Source: an uncultured Alphaproteobacteria bacterium (GTDB lineage Bacteria; Pseudomonadota; Alphaproteobacteria; Geminicoccales; Geminicoccaceae). From it: 64,000 nucleotides of DNA. Shown piece by piece: positions 18,416 through 57,906 of the stretch. The first letter of the stretch is position 1. Each line of letters opens with the position of its first letter. Below the pieces are notes generated by a model, which saw nothing but the letters and a program-made list of their open reading frames with translations, had not been told where the DNA came from and made no database searches. Position numbers and translations under genes: made by a program. The stretch is from the NCBI GenBank assembly GCA_937926445.1, contig CALBAK010000065.1, forward strand, positions 1 through 64,000. The letters run 5' to 3'.

Positions 18416-18469
18416 CCGCCCCGGGCGGTGGGCGCAGGAGGCTCGCTCCGAGGGCAGGCGCGAGGTGGC

Positions 18470-20381: not shown

Positions 20382-21713
20382 TCAGCCCTCGCGGAAGGCC
20401 TCGGCCTTGGCGCGCCACAGTCGGTCCGTCAGGTAGGAGAGGATGGTCCGCTCGCCGACCTTGAGCTCGACGTCGACCAGCATGCCCGAGCCGAGGGCGA
20501 GCTCGCCCGGTCGGCCGCCGAGCTCCTGCCGTTCGGTCGCCACCGTCACGAGATAGGCGGCCGTCTTTCCTTCGGGGTCGGGGCTCGCGTCGGCCGCCAC
20601 CTCGAGCACCTTGCCGGGCAGGGTTCCGTAGCGCAGGAAGTCGAAGGTGCGGACCTTCACCACGGCCTCGAGGCCCGGCTTCACCTTGCCGATGTCCTCG
20701 TTGGCGACCCGCGCCTGGACGACGAGTCCCTCGCCTTCCGGCACGAGGCGCAGGATCGGCTCGTTGGCGCCGATCGACTGGCCGGGGCCGGTGACCGCGA
20801 GGTCCTGGACGATGCCCGCGACCGGCGCCGTGACGAGCAGCGTGTCGAGCATGCCGACCTGGGCGGTGACCTGCTCGTAGAGCCGGTCGCGCTCGGCCAC
20901 GGTGCGCTGCAGCTCGTCCAGCACCTCGCTCTTCGCTTCCTCCTCGAGCAGGGCGAGCCGCGCCTCGGCCTCGGCCAGCGCGGTGCGTGCCCCGGCGAGC
21001 GCCGCCTCGGCTTTGGCCCGCTCGCCCTCGGCGGCGGCGACCTGGCGCTCGACCTCGACCTGCTTGAGCTTGGGGTAGAGGCCGCGCTCGGTGAGCTCGT
21101 TCACCGCCTCCAGCTGCTGACGCAGGAGGACGAGGCTGTTGCGGACCCGGCCGAGCTCGGCGGCCGCCCCCTTGAGCTCGCTGGCACGGGTCTGGACCAG
21201 CCGCTGGGCCGCCTCGCGGCGGGCGGCGAGGGCCGCCGCCCGGGCCGCCTTGAGCCGCTCCTGGGCCGCGACGAGATCGGGGCGGTCGCGCGCGAGCTGC
21301 GGGTCGACCGCGATCGGCCCGCCCTCGGCCTCGGCGCGCAGCCGCGCCGCCTCGACCGCCTTCACCTGCCAGCGGCCGAGAAGCTCGGCGTAAACGCCCT
21401 CCTCGCCGAGCCCCTCGAGCCGGAGGAGGGGCGCTCCCGCCGCCACCCGATCGCCGTTGCGGACGAACAGCTCGGCGACGCGGCCACCGCGGGGATGGTT
21501 GACGAGCTTGACGCGGCCCGCGGGTTCGACCCGGCCGGTGGCGGTCACCACCTCCTCGACCCGGGCCCAGGCGGTCCAGGCGACGGCGGTGCCGACCAGG
21601 AGCGCGATCGCGAGGACGAGCGCCCCGGCCCAGGGCGAGGTGCGGCTCTCGAGCAGCGAGCGGGCGTCGTGGAAGAGGCCCGTCTCGTCCTGTGCCCGGG
21701 TCACGGCCGACAC
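20382..21713 (-). CDS. HlyD-family periplasmic adaptor of a type I secretion system
   Basis: 443 residues from GTG 21713, one base after the stop of the upstream ABC gene. One N-terminal transmembrane helix (GALVLAIALLVGTAVAW) is followed by a lipoyl half-motif (GRVKLVNHPRGGRVAELFVRNGD), a long alanine/glutamate coiled coil (about 100-280), a second lipoyl half and a beta-barrel ending in a C-terminal hairpin. The adaptor bridges the inner-membrane ABC protein to an outer-membrane TolC-type channel, which is not encoded here. Substrates are probably RTX proteins. Confidence 0.92.
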   Translation of the reverse strand: MSAVTRAQDETGLFHDARSLLESRTSPWAGALVLAIALLVGTAVAWTAWARVEEVVTATGRVEPAGRVKLVNHPRGGRVAELFVRNGDRVAAGAPLLRLEGLGEEGVYAELLGRWQVKAVEAARLRAEAEGGPIAVDPQLARDRPDLVAAQERLKAARAAALAARREAAQRLVQTRASELKGAAAELGRVRNSLVLLRQQLEAVNELTERGLYPKLKQVEVERQVAAAEGERAKAEAALAGARTALAEAEARLALLEEEAKSEVLDELQRTVAERDRLYEQVTAQVGMLDTLLVTAPVAGIVQDLAVTGPGQSIGANEPILRLVPEGEGLVVQARVANEDIGKVKPGLEAVVKVRTFDFLRYGTLPGKVLEVAADASPDPEGKTAAYLVTVATERQELGGRPGELALGSGMLVDVELKVGERTILSYLTDRLWRAKAEAFREG

Positions 21714-21714
21714 C

Positions 21715-23871
21715 TCAGGTCACGGCCTGCAGACCGGGACGGCCGCCGCCCGGGGCGCGCAGGCGCTTGAGGATCTCGCCGGGGGAACCGTCCGCGACGA
21801 TACGGCCGGCCTCGAGCAGCACGGCCCGATCGCAGGCCTCGACCACCGCCGGGCGATGGGTGACGAGCAGGATCGTACGGCCGGAGCCCGCGCGCCGGAG
21901 ATTGGCGAGGAGCGCCGCCTCGCTCGCCGGATCGAGCGCGCTCGTCGCCTCGTCGAGCAAGAGGATGCGGGGGTTGCGGACGAGGGCTCGGGCGAGGGCC
22001 ACGAGCTGGCGCTGGCCGGTCGAGAGCCCATGGCCGCGCTCGCCGAGCCGGGTCTCGTAGCCGTCCGGCAGCCGCTGCACGATCTCGTGCAGGCCCACGA
22101 ACTTGGCGGCCGCGACGACCCGGGCGAAGGAGCGGTCGCGGGCCCCCATCGCGACGTTCTCGGCGATCGTGCCGGCGAAGAGCTCGAGTTCCTGCGGCAC
22201 GCAGCCGATCTGCGCCCGCACTTCCGACGGGGCGAGTCGGCGCAGATCGTGGCCGTCGATCAGCACCCGGCCCTCCTGCGGCACCTCGAGCCCCAGGATC
22301 ATCTTCAAGAGCGTGCTCTTGCCGGAACCGGGCGGGCCCACGATCGCCAGCATGGTGCCCGGCGCCACCTCGAGGTCGATCGCGTCGAGGGCCGGCGGCC
22401 GGTCCTCGCCATAGGCGAAGCGCACGCCCTCGAGGCGGATGCGGCCGACGAGCGGCGGGGTGACCGGTCGGCTGCCGGGCAGCGCCTCGACCGGCTCGGC
22501 CAGCACCGCGCCGAGCCGACTCCAGGCGGTGCGCGCCTGCTGGAGTTGGTGGAAGGCGCCGAACACTTGGCGCATGGGTGCTACCGCCCGGGCCGAGAGG
22601 ATCGAGCCCGCCACGAGGGCTCCGATGCTGAGCTCGCCCGCGACGATCTGGCGTGCCCCGACATAGACGAGGGCAAGGGCCGTCAGATGCTGGAGCGCCT
22701 GGGCCACGCCGCCCACGAGCCCGGCCGTGCTCTGGGCCCGGAAGCTGGTCCAGGCGGCCTCGACCAGGCGGCGCTCGAAGCGGCGCTCGACCACGGGCTC
22801 GAGGGCGAGCGCCTTGACCGTCAGCGCCTGGCCGAAGGCCTCGGAGAGGCAGGCCTGCTTGGCCACCGCGGCCCGGCTCGCCGCCCGCGAGAGCCGCTCC
22901 TGGCGACCGTGCGCGAGTGCGGAGAGGAGGACGAAGAGCGGCAAGACCGCGAGGGTGAGCCAGCCGAGGCTCGGTGCGATCAGGAAGAGGGCCGCCACGA
23001 ACAGACCGACGAAGCCGAGATCGACCAGGAGAAGCGGCAGCTGGCCCGTGAGGAAGCCGCGCAACTGGTCGAGCTCGCGCAGCCGTTCGGCGAGGGCACC
23101 GGAGCTCGCACCGGCGAGCGCCCGATAGGGCAGGCCCAGGAGGTGGTGGACGACCTCGCTGCCGAGGGCGGCATCGACGCGCGCCCCGGTGTGGCTCGCG
23201 ACGTGCGCCCGCAGTGCCCGCAAGACGAGCTCGAAGGCGAGGAGTGTCAGCATACCGACCGCCAGCACGTCGAGGGTGGCGAGCGCGGCGTGGCCGATGA
23301 CCTTGTTGTAGACGGTCATCATGAAGATCGGGGTGGCGAGTGCCAGGAGGTTGAGCACCACCGAGGCGAGTGCCACCTCGCCGAGCGCGGGCCAGAGCCG
23401 GCGCAGCACGAGATCGCGGCCTGAAGCGGCGGGCCGCGGCACCGCTTCCGCGCGCAGGAGGAGGGCCCGCCGGACCCGAGGGGCGAGGCTCTTCGGGGTG
23501 ACGGCGGTCGTCTCGCCCGTGAGCGGGTCGACCACCACGAGATGCTGCCCGGTCCGGGCCCGCAGCACGCGGACATCCTCCGGCCGGTCGCCGAGGAGTA
23601 GGCAGGGGGTCGGCAGGGCCCCGAGCGCGCGCCGGCCGCGCACCCGCTCGAGCCGGGCGAGGAGGCCCAGGCGGGTGGCGAGGCGGACGAGCTCGGCCGG
23701 CTCCGGCCGCTCGCCGACCGCGGGCCAGGCGGCCAGGAGCTCGGCCTCGCCGACCGGCCGGTCGAGCAGGGCGAGGAGCCGGGCTAAGCCCTTGAGGGCG
23801 AGTGGCGGCCCGTCTCCGATCGGCTCCGGTTGCCCGCCTCGATCCGGTGTTTCCGCCCGATCCGCCCGCAT
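21715..23871 (-). CDS. type I secretion ABC transporter with degenerate C39-like domain
   Basis: 718 residues. Residues ~20-145 resemble the C39-like domain of HlyB-type exporters; no catalytic cysteine is present in the expected position, so it would bind rather than cut the substrate. Six transmembrane helices (about 160-430) are followed by the ATPase domain: GPPGSGKST, LSTGQRQLVALARAL and ILLLDEATSALD. It couples ATP hydrolysis to export of unfolded RTX-type proteins. It forms a one-base-spaced pair with the HlyD adaptor. The two RTX genes in this window are 16-20 kb away but are the only visible candidate substrates. Confidence 0.92.
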   Translation of the reverse strand: MRADRAETPDRGGQPEPIGDGPPLALKGLARLLALLDRPVGEAELLAAWPAVGERPEPAELVRLATRLGLLARLERVRGRRALGALPTPCLLLGDRPEDVRVLRARTGQHLVVVDPLTGETTAVTPKSLAPRVRRALLLRAEAVPRPAASGRDLVLRRLWPALGEVALASVVLNLLALATPIFMMTVYNKVIGHAALATLDVLAVGMLTLLAFELVLRALRAHVASHTGARVDAALGSEVVHHLLGLPYRALAGASSGALAERLRELDQLRGFLTGQLPLLLVDLGFVGLFVAALFLIAPSLGWLTLAVLPLFVLLSALAHGRQERLSRAASRAAVAKQACLSEAFGQALTVKALALEPVVERRFERRLVEAAWTSFRAQSTAGLVGGVAQALQHLTALALVYVGARQIVAGELSIGALVAGSILSARAVAPMRQVFGAFHQLQQARTAWSRLGAVLAEPVEALPGSRPVTPPLVGRIRLEGVRFAYGEDRPPALDAIDLEVAPGTMLAIVGPPGSGKSTLLKMILGLEVPQEGRVLIDGHDLRRLAPSEVRAQIGCVPQELELFAGTIAENVAMGARDRSFARVVAAAKFVGLHEIVQRLPDGYETRLGERGHGLSTGQRQLVALARALVRNPRILLLDEATSALDPASEAALLANLRRAGSGRTILLVTHRPAVVEACDRAVLLEAGRIVADGSPGEILKRLRAPGGGRPGLQAVT

Positions 23872-43452: not shown

Positions 43453-44677
43453 TCAGCTCCTGGTCGAATCGAGCGCTTCGAAGAACCGCTCGCGCCAGCG
43501 GGCGGCGGTGTTCTCGCGCAGCACCGCCATCGCCGCCGCCCAACGCTCGCGGCGTTCGGCGAGCGGCACAGCGAGCGCCCGCTCGAGAGCTTCCGCCACC
43601 CCTTCGGTGTCGAGCGGATCGACCCGGAGCGCGCTCTTGAGCTCGTCGGCGGCACCGGCCAGTCGGGACGAGACCAGCACGCCCGGCTGCCCCGGGTCCT
43701 GAGCCGCCACGTACTCCTTGGCCACGAGGTTCATGCCGTCGCGCAGGGGCGTGACCAGCCCCACCCGGGCGACCCGCAGATAGCCCGCCAGTACGGGCCG
43801 CGGCACGGCACGATTGACCCAGCGGATCGGTGTCCAGTCGACCTCGGCGAAGCGGGCGTTGATCCGTCCGGCGAGCTGGTCGAGCTCGCTCCGCAATGCC
43901 CGGTATTGGCGCAGCTCGCCTCGCGAGATCGGGGCGATCTGCAGGAACGTGACCGCACGCCGCCGCTGCGGCTGACGCTCCAGGAGCTCGGCCACCGCCT
44001 GGAACCGGCCGGGCAGGCCCTTGGAGTAGTCCAGCCGGTCCACGCCGAGGATCAACGCCCGGTCGCCGAGGCTCTGGGCGAGCCTGCCGACCTCGGGCCC
44101 CGCCGCCGCCGCGCGTTTGGATGCCCACGAGGTCGTAGGTCGCCGTCTCGCGCAGCAGGCCCTCGTGCCCGGGCAGGGCGCGCAGCACCTCGGGTGCTGG
44201 AAACGGAACGTGCAAGAACAGGCCGATCCGGTTGGCCACCCCGAGCCGGCGGAGCGCCGCTGCGAGCGACAGGAAGTGATAGTCGTGGACCCAGACCAGA
44301 TCGTCGGGCCGCAGGAGCTCCGCGAACCCCCGAGCGAAGGTCTCGTTGACCGCCCGATAGGCCTCGAGCTCGGCCCGGCGGAAGCCGATCAGCCGGAGCC
44401 GGTAATGGCAGAGCGGCCAGAGCGTCCCGTTGGCGAAGCCCTCGTTGAACGCTCGGTAGGTCTCCCGCTCGAGATCGAGGGTGACCCAGCAGGTCCGGCC
44501 GCGGCGCACCGACCGGGGCGGCCCCGGCTCACCGTCCACGACTTGGCCGCTCCAGCCGATCCAGACCCCGCCGCGCCGGCGCAGCGCATCCCGAAGAGCG
44601 ACGACAAGTCCCCCCGCGCTGCGAGCCTCGCTGCCCGGGATGCCGACCCGGTTGGATACGATCACGAGCCGCGCCAA
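43453..44677 (-). pseudogene. otsA: trehalose-6-phosphate synthase, broken by internal deletion and frameshift
   Basis: Starting at TTG 44677 (GGGAGGAGG site), the first ~187 codons are a good GT20 N-terminus: LVIVSNRVGIPG, WIGWSG, FNEGFANGTLWPLCHY, VWVHDYHFL and ending TYDLVGIQT. The frame then runs into nonsense, while another frame, open from about 44115, gives GPEVGRLAQSLGDRALILGVDRLDYSKG and continues to the normal end DGMNLVAKEYVA…FFEALDSTRS. Intact OtsA has some 45-60 residues between these blocks, including the substrate loop; they are missing. The product would be inactive. An assembly deletion is the alternative. Confidence 0.82.
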
Positions 44678-46460
44678 AAGGCCTCCTCCCAGCTCTTCGA
44701 TAGACGCATGGCGCCGGTGATCAGTCCGACCATCGAATAGGTCTGCGGGAAGTTGCCCCAAGGGAGGCCGGTGCGCGTGTCGATGTCTTGGGAGAGCAAG
44801 CCGAGCGAGGTGCGGGCTGCGAGCATCCCCTCGAAAAGAGCACGGGCCTCCTCGCGCCGCCCGAGCGAGGCGAGCGCGTCGATGTACCAGAAGGTGCAGA
44901 CGTCGAAGGAAGTCTCGGGCAGGCCGAAATCGTCCTCGCGGTCGTAGCGCAGGACATGGTCGCCACGCCGCAGCGCCCGACCGATCGCTTCGACCGTCCC
45001 CGCGAAGCGCGGATCGTCGGTCGCGAGGAACCCGATCTCGTGCAAAAGAAGGAGGGGCTCGCGTCGAGTCCCTCGCCGCCGAAGGTTGCGACGAAGCTGC
45101 CGAGTTCCGGGCGCCAGGCCTCGGCCAGGATCGCTTTCCGGATCCGTTCGGCTTCGCTGCGCCAGTGGCTCGCCCGCTCGGCGAAACCGAGACGCTGGGC
45201 GATCTTGCCGAGGTGGTAGCAGGCGGCCCGGCACATCGCCGCCGAATGGGTGTGTACGGCACGGCAGCCGCGATATTCCCAGAGGCTCGCATCGGGTTCG
45301 AGCGCCATCCGAGCGGCGGTCGCGCCGAGATCTTCGAGGACCCGGAACAGCGCCGCGTAGTCGCGCCGCGGCAGACGGTGGTCGTAGAACACCTGTGCGG
45401 CGGCCATCACCACGCTGCCGTAGGAATCGTTCTGCCGCTGCTCGGCCGCCTGGTTGCCGATCCGCACCGGTCCCTGGCCGCCGAACCCGCGCAGGTTCGG
45501 GGCGATCCGCTCGACGAGCGGCTCGCCCGGGAGAATCCCATGGACCGGGCGCAGTTCGGCCCCGGGCTCGAGCGCCAACACGGTGGCGATCCAGTCGAGG
45601 AAGTCCTCCATGGTGCGGGCGGCACCCAGCCGGTTCAGCGCTCGCACCACGAAGAATGCGTCCCGCAGCCAGCAGTAGCGATAGTCCCAGGTGCGCGCGG
45701 TGCCGGGTGCCTCGGGGATCGAGGTCGTGAGCGCCGCCGAGATGGCGCCGGTCTCCTCGAAGCTGCACAGCTTCGGGGTAATGGCGGCGCGGTTCACCGC
45801 CTGCTGCCACTCGAACGGGACCGAAAGATAGCGGGTCCACTCGCTCCAATAGTCGAGCGTACGCTCGAGGAACTCGCGGCAGGTGGGATCGAGCGGGGCG
45901 GCGAAGCTCTCGTCCGGCCCGAGCACGAGCCAGGCCGGGCGGGTGAGTGCGAAAGCCGCTTCCCGCTCGAGCGCCGCCACTGCCAGATCGGTCGTAACCC
46001 GAAGCGCCCCGGCGACCGCCACGAAACGCAGATGGTTGGAACCCGGAACCCGCTGCGGTACCGCCGCGCCGTAGTCGAAGAGAGGCCGGATCCTCAAGCG
46101 CAGGAGCGGCGCGCCGCCCACCGGCTCGAGCCGGCGGACCAGGATCGGCGGGCGGAAGATGCGGTCGTGCCGACGAAAGCGCGGCGCGAAGTCGGTGATT
46201 CGCAGGCCGCAGCCGGCGGCGTCGAAGAGCGTGTTGCGCGAAACCGCACTGTTGCCGAGATACTCCCGTTCGCTGCGCACGCAGCCGTCCAATTCGATCG
46301 CGAAACGTCCCTCCCGAGGCCCGGCCGTCGGCTCGAGCAGCCCGCAGAAAACGGGATCGCTGCCGAGGCGCGGCTGGCAGTGCCAGACGATCGCACCGCG
46401 CGCGTCGATCGGCGCGGCGACGATGCAATTGCCGATTACGCCGAGATCGAGACCGCTCAT
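44662..46460 (-). pseudogene. glycoside hydrolase family 15 (glucoamylase/trehalase-like), frameshifted
   Basis: From ATG 46460 the frame encodes a typical bacterial GH15 protein: LGVIGNCIVAAPIDARGAIVWHC, TWDYRYCWLRDAFFVVRAL with the catalytic-site arginine/aspartate region, GNQAAEQRQNDSYG and LWEYRG. After EGLDASPS the frame is lost at a four-G run (45054-45057). A neighbouring frame carries on with LLLLHEIGFLATDDPRFAG and ends at 44662 with FPQTYSMVGLITGAMRLS. Joined, the length (~598 codons) is normal. One missing base or two extra bases explain it. The gene lies between otsB and otsA, a common trehalose operon order. Confidence 0.85.
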
Positions 46461-47209
46461 CAGCGATCTCCGGGTCCGGGCAAAAACGGTCCGCCCGCCG
46501 CCACCTCGGCTAGCCAGGCGCGCACCGCAGCCGGTCCCGCGAACGCCGACGGCCGGCCTTTGGGCGGCACGTGCCGGACCGCGAGCGCGATGCCGCCCGC
46601 CTCTTCGGCCGCCCGGAACGTCTCGAGATCGGTCCGATCGTCGCCCACGACGAGCGGCCACCGACCGAGGATGGGCGGCACGGCAAGGAGCGCGGTCACG
46701 GCGCGCCCCTTGTCGACCCCTGCCCCCCGGAGCTCGAGCACGGCCTTGCCGGCGACCGCTTCGATCGCCCCGCGGGACTCCTCGACCACCGCCAGCAACC
46801 GCTCGATCAGGACGATCGGCGGCACGACCGCGGCGCGCCAGTGGAGCGCCAGAGCCGCCCCCTTGTCCTCGACCGGCACTCCCGCCAGCAGGGTCGCCGC
46901 GGCGAGGAGCGCCCGCGCCGCGGCGAGCACCGGCGCCGCCAGCCGGCGCTCGATCGGCCAGTCCGGCCGCAGCCGGAACTCGGCCCCGTGCACCCCTGCA
47001 GCTGCGGCCCGCAAGGGCGCGAGAAGCCGGTCGAGCTCCGCGATCGGCCGGCCGCTCACGAGCGCGAGCGCGCCCGCGACCCGTCGCCGTACCGCCTCGA
47101 GGATGGCGACGAGTCCGTCCGGCACGATCACGACCTCCGGCCGCTCGGCGATCTCGAGCAAGGTACCGTCGACGTCGAGCAGAAGGCAGACCCGTTCCGC
47201 CTCGCGCAC
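46460..47209 (-). CDS. otsB: trehalose-6-phosphate phosphatase
   Basis: 249 residues. A HAD phosphatase with motif I LLLDVDGTLLE, motif II ALVSGRPIAEL, EDKGAALALHWR (typical of OtsB) and motif IV as GDDRTDLETF. It removes phosphate from trehalose-6-phosphate, giving trehalose, an osmoprotectant. Its stop overlaps the start of the GH15 gene (TGATG). Unlike its two partner genes it shows no lesion, but with otsA broken the pathway has no substrate unless another synthase exists. Confidence 0.9.
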   Translation of the reverse strand: MREAERVCLLLDVDGTLLEIAERPEVVIVPDGLVAILEAVRRRVAGALALVSGRPIAELDRLLAPLRAAAAGVHGAEFRLRPDWPIERRLAAPVLAAARALLAAATLLAGVPVEDKGAALALHWRAAVVPPIVLIERLLAVVEESRGAIEAVAGKAVLELRGAGVDKGRAVTALLAVPPILGRWPLVVGDDRTDLETFRAAEEAGGIALAVRHVPPKGRPSAFAGPAAVRAWLAEVAAGGPFLPGPGDR

Positions 47210-47234
47210 CGAGGGCCCCCGTCTCTGCCCTACT

Positions 47235-48696
47235 TCAGCCCCGCACGAGCCGGGCGAGCTCGTCGGTGGCCACCTCGAGGGCCCGGGCGAAGCGGTCGAC
47301 CGCTTCTTCCGCCTCTTCCTCGCGCATGCACGAGGGTGGCTAGAAGGGAATCGCCTCGATGAAGGGCAGCGCCCGCACCATCACCCCCGCCTCGGCCGCC
47401 TCGGCCACTACGAGGCGATGTGCCCCCTGCTCCGGCCGGAAGGGCCGCCGGCTCGCCTTGTCGGCCAGGAACTCGACCGCATTGAGCATCCCCACCCCGC
47501 GGATCTCGCCCACGAAGGGGTGATCGCCGATCCGCTCCTCGAGCCGACGCTTGAGATGGGAACCGATCCGGGCGCCGTTCTCGACCATGCCCTCGCGCTC
47601 CATGATGTCGAGATCGGTGAGGCCGACGGCACCGCCCACGGGATGGCCGGAATAAGTGAAGCCTTGCATCACCGGGCCTCGTTCGGGCGAGGCCTTTTCG
47701 AGCACCTCGAAGATCCGCTCCGAGATCACCGAGGCGGAGACCGGGAAATAGGAGGAGGTGAATGCCCTTGGCGAGGGTGACGATGTCGGGCTCGAGACCG
47801 TAGAGGCCGCAGGCGAACCACTGCCCCGTGCGACCGAAGCCCGTGATCACCTCGTCGACGATCGGGAGCATGTCGTTCTTGCGGCAGATCTCCTGCACTC
47901 GAGGCCAGTAGTCGGCGGGCGGCATCAGCACCCCGCCCGTGCCCGTGATGGGCTCGCCGATGAAGGCGGCGACGGTCTCCGGCCCTTCCCGTTCGATCAC
48001 CGCGTCGAGCTCGGCCACCTGCCGGTCGCAGAAGGCCTGCTCGCTCTCGCCCGGGCGGGCGAAGCGGAAGGCGTGCGGGCAGGAGAGATGGATCGCGCCC
48101 GGCACCGGCAGGTCGAAGGCCTCGTGGTAGACCGGGATGCCGGTGAGGCTGCCGGAGGCGAGCGTGAGGCCGTGACAACCGCCGTAGCGGCCCAAGATCT
48201 TCTTCTTTTCGGACTTGCCGCGCAGATTGTTGTAGTAGCGGACGAGTTTGACGTTCGTGTCGTTGGCGTCCGAACCCGAGGTGCCAAAGAACACCTTGGA
48301 AAGGCCGCGCACGCCGGCCTTCTCGCGGAACAGCGTCAGCACTCGGTCGGCGAGCCGGATCATGGGCTCGTTCGAGGCCGAGCCGAACAGGTGGTAGTAG
48401 GAGAGCTTCTCGATCGCGGCGCGCGCCGCCTCGGCGATCTCCGGCCGACCGTAGCCGATGTTGACGCACCAGAGGCCGGCGCCGCAGTCGATGTAATCCT
48501 TGCACCGATGGTCGCGGATCCGCACGCCTTAGCCCTGCCCGACGATGGTCGGGCCCTTCGCGAAATGCTGGACGATCGAGGTGTTGGGATGGAGCAGGCT
48601 CGCCTTGTCCATCCCCTCGAGCGTCCAGTTGGCAGGCGCCTGGAGGATGGGAACCTCCCGCAGCGGGCCCGGCTCGGGCCGGTGAACCGGTGTGGC
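47235..48696 (-). pseudogene. class III aminotransferase (omega-transaminase type), multiple lesions
   Basis: Reading leftward, LQAPANWTLEGMDKASLLHPNT and QHFAKGPTIVGQG are followed by an in-frame TAA at 48529-48531. Next come VRIRDH, DYIDCGAGLWCVNIGYGRPE, HLFGSASNEP, YYNNLRGKSEKKKI, YGGCHGLTLASGSLTG and VDEVITGFGRTGQW. After the PLP-lysine strand TLAKGI one base (near 47760) is extra. The other frame continues with SSYFPVSASVISERIFEV and GFTYSGHPVGGAVGL. A TAG at 47340-47342 then interrupts …LPFIEAIPF before the final MREEEAEEAVDRFARAL. Three independent lesions mean no functional enzyme. Similarity extends upstream of the ATG at 48612, so the exact start is uncertain. Confidence 0.87.
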
Positions 48697-48812
48697 TTAG
48701 CCCGAGGCGCGGGGGCTCCGCCAGCCGGTCCGCTGCGGGCGGGCCATCGCGTGCCTCGGTACGGCCGGGCCGCCTTGCGGCGGATCCGCCACCGGCTATA
48801 GTCGGCGCGGCC

Positions 48813-48888
48813 GCCGCAGTAGCTCAGCTGGTAGAGCAGCGCATTCGTAATGCGCGGGTCGGGGGTTCGAGTCCCTCCTGCGGCACCA
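48813..48888 (+). tRNA. tRNA-Thr (anticodon CGU)
   Basis: A 76-base cloverleaf: acceptor GCCGCAG pairs with CTGCGGC, D arm with AGCTCAGCTGGTAGAGC, anticodon stem-loop GCGCATTCGTAATGCGC with CGT in the centre, T arm GGGGGTTCGAGTCCCTC, discriminator A and an encoded CCA. CGU reads ACG threonine codons. It stands alone, just upstream of the start of the degraded aminotransferase gene on the opposite strand; tRNA genes are frequent integration sites, though no flanking repeat is obvious. Confidence 0.95.
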
Positions 48889-48992
48889 GCGAGGCGGTCG
48901 CAGCGAACGCTTCCTGCGCGTGGCGGCGGTCGCCGCTTCGCGTGCGGCCTCGGATGTCGGCAGGCCCGAGCCGAGGCCGCCTCGATCGCGCA

Positions 48993-49304
48993 TCAGGGCA
49001 CCTCGACGTCGAACAGAGGTGCGTATCGCTGCGCACCGAACACGTCGGTCTCGCCCGGGCTGCCCGAGGGCCGGAGCCGCCGGATCGTGAACTCGATCGC
49101 TTGCGCCGGCTCGAAGACGCAGTGATGGGTGAGCCGCTCGCGCGGGATCTTGAAGAGCGCGCAGATCCGCTCCGGGTCGAGGGCGCCCGAATCGCGCACC
49201 CGCTCGAAGGCGGTGCGGTCGTGGAAGATGATGTCGAAGGTGAGATGATCCACACCCGCGTTTTTCGAGCGAATGGTGGAGGCGAGCTCGCGCAGGCTCG
49301 GCAT
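48993..49304 (-). CDS. DUF4387 protein
   Basis: 103 residues from ATG 49304, whose first base is the last of the upstream stop (TGATG). The conserved start LRELASTIRSKNAGVDHLTFDIIF is typical of DUF4387, a small domain of unknown function that is nearly always encoded beside a DUF1446/AtuA-type protein, as here. The remainder (FERVRDSGALDPERICALFKIP, IEFTIRRLRPSGSPGETDVFG) matches family length. It probably forms a complex or two-subunit enzyme with the larger neighbour; this is inferred from constant linkage. Confidence 0.85.
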   Translation of the reverse strand: MPSLRELASTIRSKNAGVDHLTFDIIFHDRTAFERVRDSGALDPERICALFKIPRERLTHHCVFEPAQAIEFTIRRLRPSGSPGETDVFGAQRYAPLFDVEVP

Positions 49305-50689
49305 CAGCGTCCCTCCCCCGCCCGGCCGTCGATCACGAGTTGGCGGATCCGCACGAGCTCCATGACGTCCTCGACCTCGATCACGTGATTGAGGGTCCAT
49401 TCGTAGCCCGGCTCGCGGATCAGGATCTCGTCCGACATGAGCGCCGCCGCCCCGACCGTGCCCTTGGTGCCGGAAAGCCGGGCGTAGAAAAGGTTGCGGG
49501 CGGCGAGCGCGGCGATCTCCTCGGCGATGCGGGCATCGTCGTGGACCGCCTCGACGACGATGCCGAGCTCGTGCGATGCAGCCGGCGGGTCCGGGTCGAG
49601 CTCCTTCATGACCGCGTCGCGACCGTAGCGGTGGTAGAAGAGCCGGTAGCCCTCCCCTTCCGGGCCGAACCGTTCGACGACCTTGCCCCTCGCCCAGGCG
49701 ATCGCATCGTCGATCCGGGCGATCGTCTGCGGGTCGCGCACGCCGACGATCACGAGCCGCCGCTCGCCGATCCGGCCGGCCCCCTCGAGCTCGACCTTGA
49801 TCGTCGGGGTGGGGTGGAACACCGCACCGGAAGCGCGCGTGCTCTTCTCGTCGACCCGCTCGTAGCAGCAGGCCGACATGTCGATCCAGCCGCCCGCCAC
49901 GTGCTCGCGCAGAGGGTCGGTGCGCTCGTACACGGCGTGGCTCGCGAGCGAGGCCGGCGTACACCGCTGCGCCGGATGCATCGCCCGCACCCGCACACTC
50001 TCCCCCTCGACCGTCCCGAGGATCGTCTCCTTGCCCATGTAGGGCTCGCAGGCGAAGCTCGCGCACTCCATGAGCTTACCGGTGTAGTACGCGATGGCGG
50101 GCGAGAAGCCGGCCTGGAGCAGGGGTGCGGCGAAGAGCGCGCAGTCGGAAGCGCGGCCGGCGATCACGACTTCCGCTCCCTCGCGCGGTGCGCGGCGGAT
50201 CGGCTCGGCGTTCATCACCGCGACCACCCGGGAGGTCCGGCGCAAGGTCGAGGCGTCGGCGTCGGGGCGGCCGTCGAGCCCCTCGATGCGCGCGCCGCGG
50301 GCGAGCCGATCGAGCAGATCCTCGATCTTCTGCTCGGAATAGATCGCCGCCGGGCGAAAGGGTGCGAGCCGGTGCTCGGCCGCGATGGCGCGCAGAAGGC
50401 CCACGAACTGGTCGACCCCGCGGTCGGTGCCGGTGTCGGAGGCCGAGCCCACGATCATGGGTACGCCGAGCCGGCGGGCCTCGAGCAACATGATCTCGAG
50501 GTCGTGACGCTGGTGCACCTCGAGGCTGACGTGGCGGTCGGCGCGCAACGGCCGTGGGCCGATGTCGCAGGAACCGGCATAGGCGACGATCGCATAGGGC
50601 GAAAGCCGGCAGCCCGCGAGGAAACTTTCCTTCTCGAGCGGGGTGAAGGCCAGATGGCCGGTCGGACAGGCGATGGTGAAGGGTTTCAA
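49304..50689 (-). CDS. DUF1446/AtuA-like acyclic terpene utilisation family protein
   Basis: 461 residues. The start TTG 50689 overlaps the stop of the upstream gene (TTGA) and gives LKPFTIACPTGHLAF, the family N-terminus. Other conserved blocks are YAGSCDIGPRPL, MIVGSASDTGTDRG, VVIAGRASDCALFAAPLL, HPAQRCTPASLASHAVYE and GTKGTVGAAALMSDEI. AtuA of Pseudomonas is needed for growth on citronellol/geraniol, but most family members occur in other catabolic clusters and their reaction is unknown. It is intact, although both the upstream hydrolase and transporter genes are broken. Confidence 0.85.
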   Translation of the reverse strand: MKPFTIACPTGHLAFTPLEKESFLAGCRLSPYAIVAYAGSCDIGPRPLRADRHVSLEVHQRHDLEIMLLEARRLGVPMIVGSASDTGTDRGVDQFVGLLRAIAAEHRLAPFRPAAIYSEQKIEDLLDRLARGARIEGLDGRPDADASTLRRTSRVVAVMNAEPIRRAPREGAEVVIAGRASDCALFAAPLLQAGFSPAIAYYTGKLMECASFACEPYMGKETILGTVEGESVRVRAMHPAQRCTPASLASHAVYERTDPLREHVAGGWIDMSACCYERVDEKSTRASGAVFHPTPTIKVELEGAGRIGERRLVIVGVRDPQTIARIDDAIAWARGKVVERFGPEGEGYRLFYHRYGRDAVMKELDPDPPAASHELGIVVEAVHDDARIAEEIAALAARNLFYARLSGTKGTVGAAALMSDEILIREPGYEWTLNHVIEVEDVMELVRIRQLVIDGRAGEGR

Positions 50690-51805
50690 GCGCAGGGGCT
50701 CCCGGAAGGCGTGGGTTCGAGTTCGAAGCGGCGGCAGGCCCCGCTGCAGGGCGGGCCGCCGCAGAAGAGCAGGCGGAGCGAAGCCGTGTTCCAGATCGCC
50801 CCCGATATCGTGGCGGCGAGATCCGCGCCGCCGTGGCGGCAGAAGGCAGGGCCGTCGCCGTCGCCGTGGCGGGCGAGCAGAGCCGCGACCGCTTCGGGCG
50901 CGGCGGGTGCGGGAAGCCGCGCGAGGGCGAGCCGCAACGCGGCCGCCCGGGCGATCGAGTTGGCCTGCGCGGCCGCGAACTCGGCGCCGATCAGATTGTC
51001 CGCCGCGGCTTCGGGCGGGCAGTGATGGTTGGTGCGACCGATCCGGCCCGCCTCTCCGCGCGCGATCCCGACCCGGCGATGGCCGAGCTCGACCGCGGCG
51101 ACCCGGCCCGAAGCGTCGGCCAGCACGAGCAGCCCGCTGCCGGTGTGCGGCAGGCGGCGGATCAGCGCCAGCGCCGCCTCGACGTCGGCGCAGCGCTCGA
51201 GCAGGAGCGTCGAGAGGAAATAGCGGTGCAGCCCGGGCCCGAGATCGGCGGCGCGGCTCGCCGTGTCGGCGAGCGCGAGCCCATCGGCGTTGAGCCCGGA
51301 GGAGAAGCAGCCGGGCGCCCCGAGCGAGCCCACGACCAGGAAGCTGCGGCCGCGCTCGGGCCGGTGCAGCAGGACCTGCTGGAGCTCGCGGTGCTCGTCG
51401 CGGTAGTCGCGGTTCTTGGCGAGCAGCGCACCGTCCGCGGTGCGGACCGCGAAGGCGGTGCAGCCCTCCGCGGTGGCCGCCGCCTGGTCGACCAGATCGG
51501 CGATCGTCGCGGCGTGCAGGAAGGCGAACAGGCGCGCCGCGTCGATGCCGAAGCCGTCGGCGATGCCGGCGATTTCCGCCAGGACCTCCGGATAGAGGCG
51601 CTCGGTGGCGGCCCGCTGCTCGGCGAGGAACGAGCGGATGTCCGGCCGCTCCAGCGCGCCGCCCACCTCGGCGAGCCGCAACGCGACCGCGGCCCGGACC
51701 GCGGGCACCAGATCGGGCCGGGCGCGCGCCTGGGCGCGGCCGCGCTCGAGCGGGTCGCCCCCGCAGGCAAAGGGGCGCGGCGCGCGGGGCCTCGGATGGC
51801 CGCAT
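50686..51805 (-). pseudogene. C45 autoproteolytic acyltransferase/hydrolase, frameshifted near the start
   Basis: ATG 51805 (TGATG with the oppF stop) opens RPSEAPRAAPLCLRG; the frame is then lost at a five-C run (51758-51762 on the plus strand). A second frame continues exactly where expected: DPLERGRAQARARPDLVPAVR, then AEGCTAFAVRTADGALLAKNRDY, whose Cys is the autoprocessing nucleophile of C45 (isopenicillin-N acyltransferase-like) enzymes, and FLVVGSLGAPGCFSSGLNADGL. One extra G explains the break. GTG 51708 could restart a shortened protein that retains the nucleophile but lacks the first strand. Family members hydrolyse or transfer acyl groups on amides. Confidence 0.78.
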
Positions 51806-52763
51806 CAGGCAGCCGCCCGGTGCAGGTGGCAGGCGCTCGCGTGGCCCGGCGCCACCTCGAGGAGCGCCGGTGCCAGCTCGCGGCAAACCGGCAGGGCATG
51901 CGGGCAGCGCGGGTGGAAGCGGCAGCCGGCGGGCGGGCGGACCGGCGAGGGCGGCTCGCCCGCGAGGCGGCCAGCACCTCGCTCCCGGCGGCCGTCCAGT
52001 GGCGGCACGGCGGCCAGGAGCGCGCGGGTGTAGGGATGCGCCGGTTCGGCGAGGACCACGCGGGTCGGGCCGAGCTCGGGGATCCGCCCGAGACAGAGCA
52101 CGGCCACCCGATCGCCGACGTGCGCGACCACGGCCAGGTCGTGAGCGATGAAGAGATAGGTCAGCCCGAGCTCCTCCTGGAGCTCCCGCAAGAGAGCCAG
52201 GATCTGCGCCTGGATGGAAACGTCGAGGGCGGAGACCGGCTCGTCGAGGACGAGGAGCTCGGGGCGGAGCACGAGGGCTCGGGCGATCCCGATCCGTTGG
52301 CGTTGGCCACCCGAGAACTGGTGGGGACAGCGGTCGAGGTGGGCAGCGGAAAGCCCCACTCGCTCGAGCATCGCCGCCACCCGCGCCCGGGCCGCGGCGC
52401 GATCGAGCCGCTCGTGCACGACGAGGCCGAGGCTCACGATCTCGGCCTCCGTACGGCGCGGATTGAGGCTCGCACAAGGGACCTGGAAGACGATCTGCGC
52501 CCTCCGTCGGAAGCGGCGCAGTTCGGGGCCGTCGAGCGTGCGCAGATCGGTTCCGTCGAAGCGAACCGTCCCGGCGGTGGGCTCGATCAAGCGCAGGACG
52601 CAGCGGCCGAGCGTGCTCTTGCCCGAGCCCTATTCGCCGACCACGCCCAGGCACTCGCCCGGGAAGACCCCGAGATCGACGCCGTCGACGGCGCGCACGC
52701 GAGGCCGTCCCGGGTGGGAAAGACGACCTCGAGGCCGCGGATTTCGAGCAGAGGCGCGCTCAT
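51805..52763 (-). pseudogene. peptide ABC transporter ATPase (OppF/DppF), stop in Walker A plus frameshift
   Basis: ATG 52763 opens SAPLLEIRGLEVVFPTRDGLA; one base is missing near 52699, after which a new frame reads VRAVDGVDLGVFPGECLGVVGE. A TAG (52630-52632) then replaces the serine codon in the Walker A motif GE-S-GSGKST. The rest is perfect: RRRAQIVFQVPCASLNPRR, QFSGGQRQRIGIARAL, LLVLDEPVSALDVSIQ and the CHLH C-terminus. Restart at a later codon would lack Walker A, so no ATPase. No DppD partner is present. The ATPase at 524-2140 has TCG at the equivalent position. Confidence 0.87.
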
Positions 52764-53683
52764 GCCCGAAGCCTCGGGTCGAAGGCGTCCCGCAGGCCCT
52801 GGCTCGCGAGATTGATCGCGAGGACCAGAACGAAGATGGCGACACCGGGCAGGGTGGCGACCCACCAGGCATCGAGGAGGAAGGCGCGGCCATCGGCCAC
52901 CATCGAGCCCCAGGAGGGGACCGGCGGCTGGACACCGAGACCCAGGAAGGAGAGGCTCGCCTCGAGGACGACGATCGTCGCCATGCGGAAGGTGGCGACC
53001 ACGAGCACGGGCGAGAGGATGTTGGGCAGGATCTCGCCGAGCATGATGTGGAGGGGCGAGGCGCCGAGCGCGCGGGCGGCCTCGACATACTCCCGCTCGC
53101 GCGCGGAGAGCGTGTCGGCGCGCGCGACCCGGCAGGTCAAGACCCACTCTTTGAGAACGAGAGCCAAGCCAATGTTGGCGAGGCCGGGGCCCATCGCCGC
53201 CATCAGGCCGATCGGGAAGATCAGGTAAGGAAATCCCAGGAGTCTATCGACGATGCGGCCGATGACGATGTCGACGAAGCCGCGCCGATAGCCCGCGAGC
53301 AGGCCGAGCGTGGTACCGATCAGAGCGGCGATGCCGATGACGACGAGACCGATCGTCATCGACACCCGAGCACCTTGGAGGATGCGCGAGAGGATGTCGC
53401 GGCCCAGCGGGTCGCAGCCCAGTGGATGCGCCCAGTCGCCGCCCTCGAGCCAGACCGGTGGCTGCAGGCGGCGGAACAGATCGGCCTCGTAAGGATCGTG
53501 GGGGGCGAGCCAGGGAGCGAAGACCGCGACCAGAGCGGCGAGCAGCACGACCGCGAGGGCGCTCACGGTCGTACGGTCGGCGAGCAGACCGCGCAGATCG
53601 GCGAGGAGGGGCGAAGCGGCGCGCTGCCCCGGTTCGCCGCCTGGGGCCGTGCGCGTGCCGGTCTCGACCGCCTCGAGCCTCAA
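52760..53683 (-). CDS. peptide ABC transporter permease (OppC/DppC)
   Basis: 307 residues from TTG 53683, which overlaps the original oppB stop (TTGA). The N-terminal OppC_N helix (TTVSALAVVLLAALVAVFAPWLAPHDP) is followed by HPLGCDPLGRDILSRILQGARVS and the EAA region REREYVEAARALGASPLHIMLGEILPNILSP. It is one half of the membrane channel of a dipeptide/oligopeptide importer. It is the only intact gene of this transporter; oppB, oppF and the binding protein are damaged. Confidence 0.9.
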   Translation of the reverse strand: MRLEAVETGTRTAPGGEPGQRAASPLLADLRGLLADRTTVSALAVVLLAALVAVFAPWLAPHDPYEADLFRRLQPPVWLEGGDWAHPLGCDPLGRDILSRILQGARVSMTIGLVVIGIAALIGTTLGLLAGYRRGFVDIVIGRIVDRLLGFPYLIFPIGLMAAMGPGLANIGLALVLKEWVLTCRVARADTLSAREREYVEAARALGASPLHIMLGEILPNILSPVLVVATFRMATIVVLEASLSFLGLGVQPPVPSWGSMVADGRAFLLDAWWVATLPGVAIFVLVLAINLASQGLRDAFDPRLRA

Positions 53684-54474
53684 AGCCGTACCCTCGGATC
53701 GAGCACGGTCTGGAGGATGTCGGCGAGAAGATTGAGGAGCACTTAGGTCACGGCGTAGAGCAGCACCGCTGCCTGCACGAGCGGATAGTTGCGGGTGAAG
53801 ATCCCCTCGACGACGAGCCGGCCGAGCCCCGGCCAGCCGAACACGGTCTCGACGATCATGTTGCCGCCGAGAAGTGTGCCGGTCTCGATCGCCGCCACGG
53901 TGATCGTCGCGGTGAGTGCGTTGCGGAGCGCGTGGCGGACCAGCACCCGCCGGCGCGGCAGGCCCTTGGCGGTGGCGAAGGTGACGTAGTCCTGGCGCAG
54001 GGCCTCGAGCATCGAGGTCCGGGTCACCCGCATGAGGATGGCCGCCATCGCGAGGCCCAGGGTCGCGGCCGGCAAGAGGAGGTGGCGCAGGGCCTCGAGG
54101 AAGCTCGCCGGCCGCCCGGCCAGGAGGGTGTCGAGGAGGAGGAAGCCGGTCAGCGCCGGCACCTCGGCGCCGAAGCCTATCCGACCCGACACCGGCAGCC
54201 AGCCGAGCTGGACGGAGAACAGCAAGATGAGAAGGATACCGAGCCAGAAGCCGGGCATCGAGGCGCCGGCCAAGGCGACGACGGTGACGAGGCGGTCGAG
54301 CGAGCCGCCGCGTCGCACCGCCGCCCGCTGTTCCGGAGTGGCGAGCGCGTCACCGAGCATGAGCTCGACCGGATCGCCCGGCGTCGCCTGCATCGTCAGG
54401 GAGACGACGAAGGTGATCCCGAGCAGGACCGGAACGAGCTGGAGCAGCCGCTCGACCAGCACCGAGGGCCGCAT
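53680..54474 (-). pseudogene. peptide ABC transporter permease (OppB/DppB), internal deletion and stop
   Basis: ATG 54474 opens RPSVLVERLLQLVPVLLGITFVV and PGDPVELMLGDALATPEQRAAVRR, which is joined directly to GGSLDRLVTVVALAGASMPGFW. In intact DppB about 70 residues, including transmembrane helix 2 and part of the periplasmic domain, lie between. The frame goes on normally through the EAA loop to LLYAVT, where TAA (53743-53745) interrupts; VLLNLLADILQTVLDPRVRL follows in frame to a TGA that overlaps the oppC start. Both lesions are in a sequence otherwise free of error. Confidence 0.82.
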
Positions 54475-54519
54475 CGATGCGCGCTCCGCTCCTGTGCCGC
54501 CGGGGCCGCGCCGCCGCCC

Positions 54520-56045
54520 TCAGTCGGCGAGGGCCGTGCGATGCGATTTGACGATGCCGCGTGGCGAGGGCTGCCAGTCGACCAGCCGCCGGCTCGCCCC
54601 GTAGACGTCCTGCGGCAGCCAGAGGAACAGCAGGGGCGCCTCCTCGCGGATGATCGCCTGCGCCTTCTGGTAGTATTCCGAGCGCTTGGTCTGGTCGGGC
54701 TCGGTGTCGGTCGCGGTCAGCAGCCGATCGACCTCGGCGTTGCTGTAGCCCGAGAAATTGCCGCGATCCTTGGTCTTGAGGACGGGAACGAAGATGCCGA
54801 CCGGATCGAGCGTACCGTCGCCCCAGGAGCGGAAGAGCATCGTGCAGTCGTGCTTGCTCGGGTCTTTCCACAGATGGATGAGCGCTGTCCGCTCCCAGAG
54901 CTGGACCTTGGTCCGGATGCCGACCCGGGTGAGCATCGCCGCCACCGCCTCCGCCTGCTCTTTGAAGGGATTGTCGACGTCGAGGGTCACGTCGACGCCG
55001 TTCGGATAGCCGGCTTCGGCGAGCAGCGCCTTGGCCTTCTCGGGGTCGTAGGACCAGGGTTCGAAGTTCGGATTGTAGCCGAAAGAATCCGGGCCGATCA
55101 ACGTGGTGAGCGGCACGGCGAGCCCGTTCAGGATCTTGTCGATCACGAGCTTTCTGTCGACCGCGTGATTGGCCGCTCGGCACACCTCGACTTTGTCGAA
55201 GGGCGGCCGGGTGGTGTTGAAATCGAAGAAGAAGCTCCGCGTGCCGTTGCTCTTGAGGACCTTGGTGCGAGGATTGGCTTCGACCTGCTTGATCGCGTGG
55301 TGGGGCAGCTCGTCGACGAGGTCGACCTCGCCGGCGAGCAGGGCGGCGACGCGCGAAGCGGGCTCCGGATGATCTTGAAGATCACCCGCTCGACCCGCGC
55401 CGGGCCTATCGGTGGAATGTCGCTCGCGCCGCCGTAATAGTCGGGGAAGCGCTCGAGGATCACCGAATCGCCCTTGCGCCACTCGACCAGACGGAAGGGG
55501 CCGGTGCCCATCGGCCGGGTCGCCATCCCGTCGCTGCCGACCTTCTCGACATAGGTCTTCGACACGACCTCGTTGAAGGGCAGATAGGCGGGAAAGACCG
55601 GCCAGGGTGCAGCGAGCCGGAAGCGGACGGTGAGGGGGTGGACCACATTCGTTTCGGCGAGCGGACCCACGAGGCTCTTGCGGGGGCTCGTCTCGCCCTC
55701 CATCGCCCCGTCCTCGGTGGGCCGGTCGAAGGTGAACTTGACGTCCTCGGCGGTCAGCGTGCTGCCGTCGTGGAAGCGGATGCCCGGCCGCAGCCGTGCC
55801 TCGTAGGTCGTGGCATCGAGCTGGCGGAAGCTCTCGGCGAGTTCGGGAACCACCTTCATGTCGACGGCGCGGGTCAGGACCGCGTCGTACATGTTGTGGA
55901 TCACACTTTCGGTGACCCGCGAGCGATGGTTGGCCGGATCGAGGGTGACGATGTCGGCCGAATAGCCGACCCGGAGTTCCTTGGCGGCGAGTCGCACCGT
56001 CGGCAGGGCCACCCCGAGCACGGCCAGGACGGTTCACGAACGCAT
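54520..56045 (-). pseudogene. peptide ABC transporter substrate-binding protein, early stop and frameshift
   Basis: The natural start is ATG 56045 after GGGAGGCGAGGC, but codon 4 is TGA (56034-56036). Beyond it, TVLAVLGVALPTVRLAA completes a signal peptide. The family 5 binding-protein fold follows: LRVGYSADIVTLDPAN, YEARLRPGIRFHDGS and MGTGPFRLVEW. At about 55369 one base is missing after RVIFKII; the next frame resumes with PEPASRVAALLAGEVDLVDEL and continues intact to VDWQPSPRGIVKSHRTALAD. Two lesions disable the gene. It would bind peptides in the periplasm for the adjacent permeases. Confidence 0.85.
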
Positions 56046-56160
56046 GCCTCGCCTCCCGATCCTGCCCCGAAGATCCACGTCAGGATCTCGCCGAACGACC
56101 GAGAGGTCAGTTTTCTTTTCGAAATCGACGATGAAACGAGCTGATGATATTTTTTTTCTG

Positions 56161-57132
56161 TTACATCCGATCGCGCCCGACGCTCACGGCCGGCGCGGGC
56201 CCGAGCCAGCTCGGCTCCTCGCCCATCGCCCGGCGGGCGAGCCCGGCCACCGCCCGGACCGCCGGCGAGGGCGGCTCGCCGGCCACGGCGAGGACATAGT
56301 CGAGCCCCGGCAGCGGCGGGTGGGTCGGCAAAAGGCGCAGACTGCCCGCGGCCAGTTCCCGGCAGGCCACCGCCGCCGGCGCCATCGCCACGTCGAGCCC
56401 CGGCGCGGCGAGCCGGATCCGGGTCGGCAGGCTCGAGCAGGCGTGATGCCGGCTCGGCTCCACGCCGCCGCTGCGGAACCATTCGAGCGCCAGGCGGTGG
56501 GGGTGGCTCCCGGGGGTGTCGGTGACGAGTGGCACACGGGCGAGCTCGGGGAGCCCCAGAGGTCCCGCCGGGAGCTCCAGCCCGGGTCCGGCGAGCCAGG
56601 CCATGGGCACACTGCCGAGCGGCTCCACCCGAACCACAGGCAGCTCGAGCGGCCCGGCCAGACAGGCGATGTCGAGGTCACCGGCACGCAACAGGGCGCG
56701 CAACCTGTCGCTCGCCTCGACCACGACCTCCAGGCGGATCCCGGGATGCGAGCGCTCGAGCCGAGCCACGAGCCGGGGCAGCCACGTGACCGCCGGGATC
56801 GCGGTGAGTCCGAGCCGCACCCGACCGGTCGGGCGATCCCGGGCGCCGACTCGCTCGACCGCCTCGCGGCCGAGCGCCAGCATCCGCTCGGCATAGTCGA
56901 GAAGCTCGCGACCCTCCGGGGTCGGGTGCGGTCGGCGGCCGCCGCGCTCGACCAGGACGACGCCGAGGAGGGCTTCGAGCTCCTTGAGCCGGGCCGGGAC
57001 CGAGGGTTGGGCGACGCCCAGCCGGCGGGCCGCGGCGTGGAAGCCGCCGGCGCGGACGATTTCGCGAAACGCCAAGAGCTGCTCGGGCTTGGGCAGCCGC
57101 GGCGATCCCTCCCCATCGCGCTGCACCGCCAC
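56161..57132 (-). CDS. LysR-family transcriptional regulator
   Basis: 323 residues from GTG 57132 with GGGAGG nearby. The winged helix-turn-helix is canonical: LLAFREIVRAGGFHAAARRLGVAQPSVPARLKELEALLG, shown here as the region 18-56, followed by the linker helix and an effector domain beginning VRLGLTAIPAVTWLPRLV. It is upstream of the peptide-uptake genes and transcribed the same way, so it may have controlled them; LysR proteins usually regulate a divergent or adjacent catabolic operon with a small-molecule inducer. It is intact, in contrast to the cluster below it. An A-rich tract (AGAAAAAAAA on the coding strand) directly follows the stop. Confidence 0.9.
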   Translation of the reverse strand: MAVQRDGEGSPRLPKPEQLLAFREIVRAGGFHAAARRLGVAQPSVPARLKELEALLGVVLVERGGRRPHPTPEGRELLDYAERMLALGREAVERVGARDRPTGRVRLGLTAIPAVTWLPRLVARLERSHPGIRLEVVVEASDRLRALLRAGDLDIACLAGPLELPVVRVEPLGSVPMAWLAGPGLELPAGPLGLPELARVPLVTDTPGSHPHRLALEWFRSGGVEPSRHHACSSLPTRIRLAAPGLDVAMAPAAVACRELAAGSLRLLPTHPPLPGLDYVLAVAGEPPSPAVRAVAGLARRAMGEEPSWLGPAPAVSVGRDRM

Positions 57133-57196
57133 CTCCCAAACGCGACGTCGGGGCGATCTTGGCCCGGATCGAGGCCGGGCGGGGAGCCCTCGAACG

Positions 57197-57231
57197 AAAA
57201 GCGCCCCCGGGATCGCTCCCGGGGGCGCTCG
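57197..57231 (-). terminator. Rho-independent terminator of the cold-shock gene
   Basis: A perfect 13-bp stem (AGCGCCCCCGGGA / TCCCGGGGGCGCT, tetraloop between) at 57200-57229. Read leftward it is followed by TTTTCG. It lies 24 bases after the cold-shock stop codon and is the clearest intrinsic terminator in the window. Confidence 0.85.
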
Positions 57232-57252
57232 CTCGATCGTCGATCCGGCGGA

Positions 57253-57462
57253 TCAGCCGATCAGCTTGAGGTTCTCCGCCGAGCTCTTGCCGTTGCGGCC
57301 GCGGACCAGCTCGTACTGGACCCGCTGACCCTCGCGCAGGCCGTCGAGGCCAGCGCGCTCCACGGCACTGATGTGCACGAAGGCGTCAGGACCGCCCTTC
57401 TCGGGCTGCAGGAAGCCGTAGCCCTTCGTCGCATTGAACCACTTGACCGTACCCGTCTGCAA
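57253..57462 (-). CDS. cold-shock domain protein
   Basis: 69 residues. The CSD is complete, with RNP1 (KGYGFLQP) and RNP2 (DAFVHIS) single-strand nucleic-acid-binding motifs, after MQTGTVKWFNATK. It is an RNA chaperone/antiterminator. The start codon is TTG 57462, unusual for this normally ATG-started, highly expressed gene, and the preceding bases have only a weak GAG. A perfect hairpin terminator follows. The 440 bases upstream are without genes and could form a long cold-responsive leader. Confidence 0.93.
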   Translation of the reverse strand: MQTGTVKWFNATKGYGFLQPEKGGPDAFVHISAVERAGLDGLREGQRVQYELVRGRNGKSSAENLKLIG

Positions 57463-57906
57463 ACTCGTGACTCACTCGCTCAGGTGCGCGGCCGGCACCC
57501 TTGCCGACCACGGGATGGAAAGCTCTGGGCGAGGGAGGTCGCTTCGACGGCCGACGCGCAGGGCTCGTTCCACCACGACACTCCATATGGCCCCGATCCG
57601 AGCCCGGCACAAGGCCCGATCGCGTGATCGTCGGCCCCGGGCCGCCCGCGGGGCGCCGCCCCTGCACGCCTCCTCTCCCCGCTCCCACCGACCCCGCCGG
57701 CCGGCGGGTGGTCGGATCGCGAGCGCTCACGGGCCCGCCTAGGACCGACCCGACGGCCACCGCCGCGCGGCCACTCGGGACGAAGGCACCGGGTTCGTAC
57801 CGTCGCAGGGGCTCTCGACCGTCGCCGAAGACCGGGCCGGCGCGCCGCGACGAACTGCCGCCGTCGATCCTTTACGAGCCGAGGCCCCGAAGGGGGAACC
57901 CGTGGC
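57463..57906. other. gene-free interval upstream of the cold-shock gene
   Basis: No reading frame of either strand shows a start signal together with protein-like composition. The sequence is uniformly GC-rich apart from a short less-GC segment at about 57570-57600. Since cold-shock genes often have long 5' leaders, part of this may be transcribed leftward; I see no recognisable motif. Confidence 0.4.

Follow-up and report, generated by a model that had tools for sequence, protein, structure and literature searches.

In Shigella, the loss of one gene is described as leading on to decay of the remaining genes of its operon (PMC3218036), and in Salmonella one inactivating change was found in 346 of 378 pseudogenes (Kuo and Ochman 2010, PMC2916853). 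The literature library searched had no paper combining Geminicoccaceae, metagenome-assembled and pseudogene, and nothing usable on clustered recent pseudogenes or on indel errors. Here we describe a block of broken genes at 43.45–56.05 kb of the window, the 64,000-base stretch of DNA analysed (bases 1–64,000 of the 98,517-base contig C65), from an uncultured member of the Geminicoccaceae whose genome (G000) comprises 3.71 Mb in 120 contigs. The block holds two adjacent minus-strand gene sets, a trehalose-type group (otsA, GH15 and otsB) with an aminotransferase gene and an uptake cassette (opp genes with C45 and AtuA genes), and we think it very probable that both have undergone real, recent pseudogenisation under relaxed selection.

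Lesions within the block

Lesions were called by frameshift-aware alignment to the proteins of G004, together with translations and DNA alignment. G004 belongs to the same genus and is the closest relative compared, with a DNA identity of ~80–85%; a second relative, G005, is a single 3.76 Mb contig that is collinear with C65 across almost its full length. There are 11 protein genes in the block: otsA, GH15, otsB, the aminotransferase, AtuA, C45, oppF, oppD, oppC, oppB and the solute-binding protein (SBP) gene, the total becoming 12 with the LysR gene just outside. Eight of the 11 are broken relative to their G004 orthologues, namely otsA, GH15, the class-III aminotransferase, oppD, oppF, oppB, the binding protein and, doubtfully, C45, without which the count falls to seven. 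Reading frames are intact in otsB, AtuA, oppC and the neighbouring LysR gene (for the last three, over the length aligned to G004). The features are as follows.

43453..44665, minus strand: otsA (trehalose-6-phosphate synthase, GT20) pseudogene, placed by a PF00982 match and the G004 alignment, upper end approximate
44662..46460, minus strand: GH15 pseudogene, with two additional bases (+2) at 45,056
46460..47209, minus strand: otsB (trehalose-phosphatase, PF02358), open frame
47233..48747, minus strand: class-III aminotransferase pseudogene, with three stops (48,699, 48,531 and 47,342) and one extra base (+1) at 47,760
48813..48888, plus strand: intact tRNA-Thr (CGT) gene, the left edge of the cassette common to G004
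49304..50698, minus strand: AtuA-family gene, open, 87% amino acid identity to G004
50686..51805, minus strand: C45 family acyltransferase/hydrolase gene, early +1, remainder of frame open
51805..52763, minus strand: oppD-oppF fusion pseudogene, with a deletion of ~1 kb against G004, a +2 and a stop
52760..53683, minus strand: oppC, open
53683..54474, minus strand: oppB pseudogene, with 213 bases lost in frame after 54,325 and a stop at 53,745
54520..56045, minus strand: extracellular solute-binding protein (family 5) pseudogene, with a stop at the fourth codon (56,036) and one base missing (-1) at 55,369
56161..57132, minus strand: LysR regulator of the cassette, open
57253..57471, minus strand: cold-shock protein gene, the first conserved gene right of the cassette

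In the G004 alignment the otsA frame is broken by a net 152-base deletion at ~44,099–44,110, and PF00982 accordingly matches the gene in two pieces (43471–44085 and 44111–44626). The aminotransferase, with four lesions, carries the most of any gene in the block. TAA, TAG and TGA are all represented among the stops and the relatives have sense codons at those positions; alternative decoding was rejected as their source on these grounds.

Almost the whole of oppD is missing, its first ~45 codons being joined to oppF at the Walker A motif. Read on the minus strand, the junction runs from the first codons of oppD (MSAPLLEIRGLEVVFPTRDG) through a 2-base shift (+2, at ~52,689) and a Walker A stretch containing the stop (52,630–52,632) to oppF from TLGRC on. 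Positions 52,615–52,698 of the window match G004 at two sites ~1 kb apart, one in oppF and the other in oppD, and the Walker A stretches of these two G004 genes share identical runs of 10, 11 and 13 bases in one register. The simplest reading of this alignment is that the two Walker A stretches recombined with each other and so produced the deletion, with the stop and the shift arising before or after it. In G004 itself, oppD is whole and oppF is divided between the ends of contigs C187 and C69, both pieces being open. Bases 1–58 of C187 (L043) are a short contig-end stretch unrelated to oppF that may be adapter-type residue; the break in the G004 assembly falls inside that gene.

C45 is the marginal case. 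Its ATG overlaps the oppF stop and its frame follows G004 for ~15 codons before departing at an extra base (+1, ~51,763). Damage is nevertheless doubtful, because the rest of the frame is open and almost the entire family model matches within one open frame from 51,762; we count the gene as damaged with that doubt. Two genomes of other bacteria (L063 and L064, see below) have an ATG near the place corresponding to the window's C45 ATG, where the G004 codon is ATC (L062, ~base 194). G004 may have lost or changed its C45 start, or ATC may be an error at 6x coverage.

The preliminary description of this DNA had listed lesions in 7 of 12 genes. The cluster of damage stands; by our count it is 8 of 11 in the interval (7 without C45), including oppD, whose loss by fusion had been overlooked. 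The individual lesions were largely recovered. Deletions in otsA and oppB (152 net and 213 bases against G004), in-frame stops in the aminotransferase, oppF, oppB and the binding protein, and frameshifts in otsA, GH15, the aminotransferase, oppF and the binding protein were all found, the claimed C45 frameshift alone being marginal and near the gene's start. A comparison with the orthologous region of a close relative had also been proposed there: G004 frames are intact where the block is disrupted, and the same is true of G005 for otsA, GH15 and the aminotransferase.

Clustering of the damage

Control genes were 104 orthologues, 54 on C65 outside the interval and 50 in four other 20 kb stretches (four of six samples). 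Across 43.45–57.47 kb, which takes in the LysR and cold-shock genes, 8 of 13 genes are damaged against 1 of 104 controls by judgement (Fisher p = 1.6e-8); counting every raw control flag as a lesion gives 8/13 against 16/104 (p = 7e-4). The two sides of this comparison were scored by different procedures, the 13 genes by hand, mostly against G004, and the controls by a G005-based census. In the latter, 56 automatically picked C65 orthologues were aligned; apart from the 54 controls, these comprised GH15 and the aminotransferase, the two genes that were all the census detected in the interval. Lesions are thus commoner in the block than in the controls, which sample the contig flanks and four 20 kb stretches, a part of the genome.

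Raw flags fell on 9 of the 54 contig controls (seven events and two in-frame gaps), none of which was judged a true mid-gene lesion, and the statement in the preliminary description that the flanks are nearly all intact is borne out to that extent. The flags inspected at the sequence level were those at 18,439 and 34,899, both judged to be artefacts in which the reference frame extends upstream of the likely start. For those at 17,398, 30,839, 60,388 with 59,361, 89,356 and 92,969, and for the two in-frame gaps, the judgement was based on position and local identity. A slightly different earlier rule gave two further flags, 67,179 and 72,762, both at residue 6 of their references. In the four other stretches, true lesions numbered 0/12, 1/10, 0/14 and 0/14, and raw flags 0, 2, 1 and 4. 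The flagged stop in the second C64 gene was judged an artefact from the alignment; the flag on C69 and those on four C95 genes were judged likewise, from 25-residue contexts. A reverse census of window genes against the relatives flagged 8 of 55 G005 genes and 2 of 14 G004 C69 genes, and so indicates the method's false-flag rate.

The sole control lesion judged true is an isolated broken gene elsewhere in G000. It is a +2 frameshift at position 2,789 of L057 (G000:C64:1-20000); the gene has 452 residues, and its identity to G005 is 95% on either side of the shift.

Substitutions on the G000 branch

A former gene that drifts neutrally loses the contrast normally seen between codon positions. 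With G005 as outgroup, third-position changes from G/C to A/T unique to G000 were found at 103 of 1027 sites in otsA, GH15 and the aminotransferase taken together, compared with 168 of 2755 sites in 12 flanking genes (Fisher p = 5e-5). Second-position changes from A/T to G/C in the same polarised comparison numbered 42/720 and 58/1757, respectively. The preliminary description's claim that codon bias stays normal up to every lesion holds only roughly, as third-position G+C is falling.

The aminotransferase gives the clearest sign of relaxation. Its dN is 0.093 to G004 and 0.078 to G005, against 0.027 between G004 and G005, while its dS, 0.30 between the latter two, is only 0.46–0.48 to G000. 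In GH15, oppB and the SBP gene the signal on the G000 branch is weak or absent. For the damaged genes as a whole, dN/dS to G004 is 0.14–0.35, inside the flank range of 0.06–0.39, in keeping with the preliminary description's view that the event is recent. The six stops imply between ~240 (uniform spectrum) and 440 (biased spectrum) substitutions, or 3–5% neutral change, an estimate made on six genes (8,151 bases) without oppF although oppF holds one of the six stops; this is comparable in magnitude to the dN excess seen in the aminotransferase.

Distribution and origin of the two gene sets

The genes for otsA and GH15 occur at one place in five of the six genus members, and are in two pieces only in G000. 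In G004 and G005, otsA, GH15 and the aminotransferase are at the matching place, and in G001 and G003 otsA and GH15 are on a different contig from that syntenic with the block. The remaining assembly, G002 (430 contigs, 95% complete), retains the aminotransferase; family searches of it found neither otsA nor GH15, and tblastn gave no trace of G004 proteins over ~1.5 kb at the expected otsA-GH15-otsB site. The match-free ~1.5 kb of G002 lies at ~20,625–22,112 of its contig C321 (L047/L048), and its translations appear repetitive by eye. For treS, the sole other trehalose route searched, nothing scored above cut-off in six genomes and there were weak partial matches only, two of which fall in what are presumably glycogen genes.

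The cassette is patchier. In G005, G001 and G003 the tRNA side joins the cold-shock side directly, without it, and a close C45 relative is present in 2 of 31 family genomes (G000 and G004), with distant matches only in three others. Judging from these comparisons, the otsA-GH15-otsB group and the aminotransferase, left of the tRNA gene, are the ancestral part, and we read the LysR-SBP-oppBCDF-C45-AtuA cassette as either gained by the ancestor of G000 and G004 or retained by these two only.

Presence and absence of a cassette beside a tRNA gene varies here among close relatives, as it does in tRNA-borne integrative islands. No direct repeat of the tRNA 3' end was found at the far edge, however: 48,781–48,960 and 55,901–57,700 have in common three exact runs of at least 9 bases, the longest of 11, and an att repeat was rejected, as the tRNA's 3' portion contains none of them. 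Likewise, no integrase is among the Pfam matches of the scanned cassette genes (intergenic gaps were not scanned), and a mobile element in the stretch was rejected for want of any such match among the scanned genes.

A cluster of similar content is found in L063 (Loclat bin-04156) and L064 (Chelatococcus asaccharovorans), in both of which the SBP, oppB, oppC, C45 and AtuA genes lie together as in G000. L063 additionally has a LysR match, also as in G000 (oppD and oppF were not searched in either). The cluster genes of L063 and L064 give near full-length single matches, whereas the G000 cassette is mostly broken.

Weighing the explanations

If the uptake cassette and the trehalose group had both fallen into disuse, mutations would accumulate in each; after one pathway member had gone, the other genes of its operon would become useless and stops, small indels and deletions would gather, among them a single deletion joining oppD and oppF at their similar Walker A stretches. 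The aminotransferase (four lesions, raised dN) was probably the first to go. This order of events, and relaxation operon by operon, we infer. AtuA, oppC, LysR or otsB may still be under selective maintenance, given that they have no lesions.

A number of points weigh against this interpretation. The lesions of G000 were read from the assembly consensus, and the principal reference, G004, is a thin assembly at 6.3x coverage in which oppF straddles two contigs and the C45 start reads ATC. The chance of four lesion-free genes (~4 kb) in such a block, calculated post hoc, is 0.004. As dN/dS to G004 is not elevated in GH15 (0.22), oppB (0.14) or the SBP gene (0.14), substitutions by themselves are no proof of relaxation there. 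The codon-position split of substitutions on the G000 branch (220:271) differs little from that of the flanks (447:633), an unpolarised pairwise test on six broken genes was not significant (p = 0.61, 0.05 and 0.12 for positions 1, 2 and 3), the block's four genes with open frames also drop in third-position G+C (p = 0.04), and the G000 branch is faster in flanking genes too. Finally, two functionally unrelated neighbouring sets decay jointly while their flanks stay whole, a pattern not expected from operon logic by itself.

The preliminary description had offered locally poor consensus as its other reading. Thin or mixed coverage over 43–57 kb would make the stops, indels and deletions assembly errors; the gathering of lesions in a single stretch, the one- or two-base size of several of them and a genome in 120 contigs with 2.5% contamination all fit. 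Deletions of 152, 213 and ~1,000 bases are atypical of consensus errors, however, and six stops would require substitution errors at a few per cent of bases. Changes in the three polarised damaged genes are also directional, with third-position G+C lost and second-position G+C gained, unlike random errors, and the tRNA, otsB, AtuA, oppC and LysR genes are open inside or beside the stretch. Because of the three large deletions, the aminotransferase dN, the loss of third-position G+C and the absence of otsA and GH15 from G002, relaxed selection is better supported; we infer that the consensus is correct and regard local error as unlikely.

Two further explanations seem to us less likely still, and about equally so. 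One is a strain mixture or chimera, in which the stretch would be the decayed copy of some co-occurring relative and the main strain would have intact genes elsewhere. The many contigs of G000 and its measure of contamination would allow this, but whole-genome family searches found no second otsA or GH15 in G000, C45 occurs at the block only, and the flanks and the stretch are alike in their ~80–85% identity to G004. The other is a single cause acting on the whole 12.6 kb around the tRNA-Thr gene, for example transcriptional silencing across the region or a locally raised mutation rate, in place of separate disuse. This would account for the joint decay of unrelated neighbours, and the open AtuA, oppC and LysR genes would in that case either be retained for some other role or have escaped damage so far. 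That some of the damaged genes still function, the oppD-oppF fusion and shortened OppB forming a reduced transporter with stops and shifts bypassed, is highly improbable: the oppB deletion is in frame, the fusion junction at Walker A can be followed in one reading frame, and oppC, AtuA and LysR are open with dN/dS of 0.16–0.20, but the fusion and oppB both bear additional stops or a shift, and in the binding protein the codon-4 stop is accompanied by a frameshift.

Comparison with known systems

The damage to the two adjacent gene sets is most likely a case of ordinary, recent operon-wise bacterial gene loss, caught in progress. The block offers a snapshot of ongoing loss, in which the trehalose-type group is absent from the congener G002 and a patchy uptake cassette is already decaying, with G004 displaying the state that precedes most of the lesions. 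There is a practical consequence, in that automated annotation could wrongly report OtsAB trehalose synthesis and peptide uptake from these broken genes.

The parallel with Shigella is that broken and still-open genes share one operon; the difference is that decay in Shigella is spread widely over the genome and tied to host adaptation (PMC3218036), whereas just 1 of the 104 G000 controls is broken by judgement. The young pseudogenes of Salmonella resemble those of G000 in being formed by small indels, stops and deletions, recognised against syntenic intact relatives (PMC2916853). Unlike the Salmonella majority, the G000 aminotransferase, oppD-oppF, oppB and binding protein genes have at least two lesions each, and given several lesions per unit the G000 pseudogenes may have persisted for longer than is usual in Salmonella.

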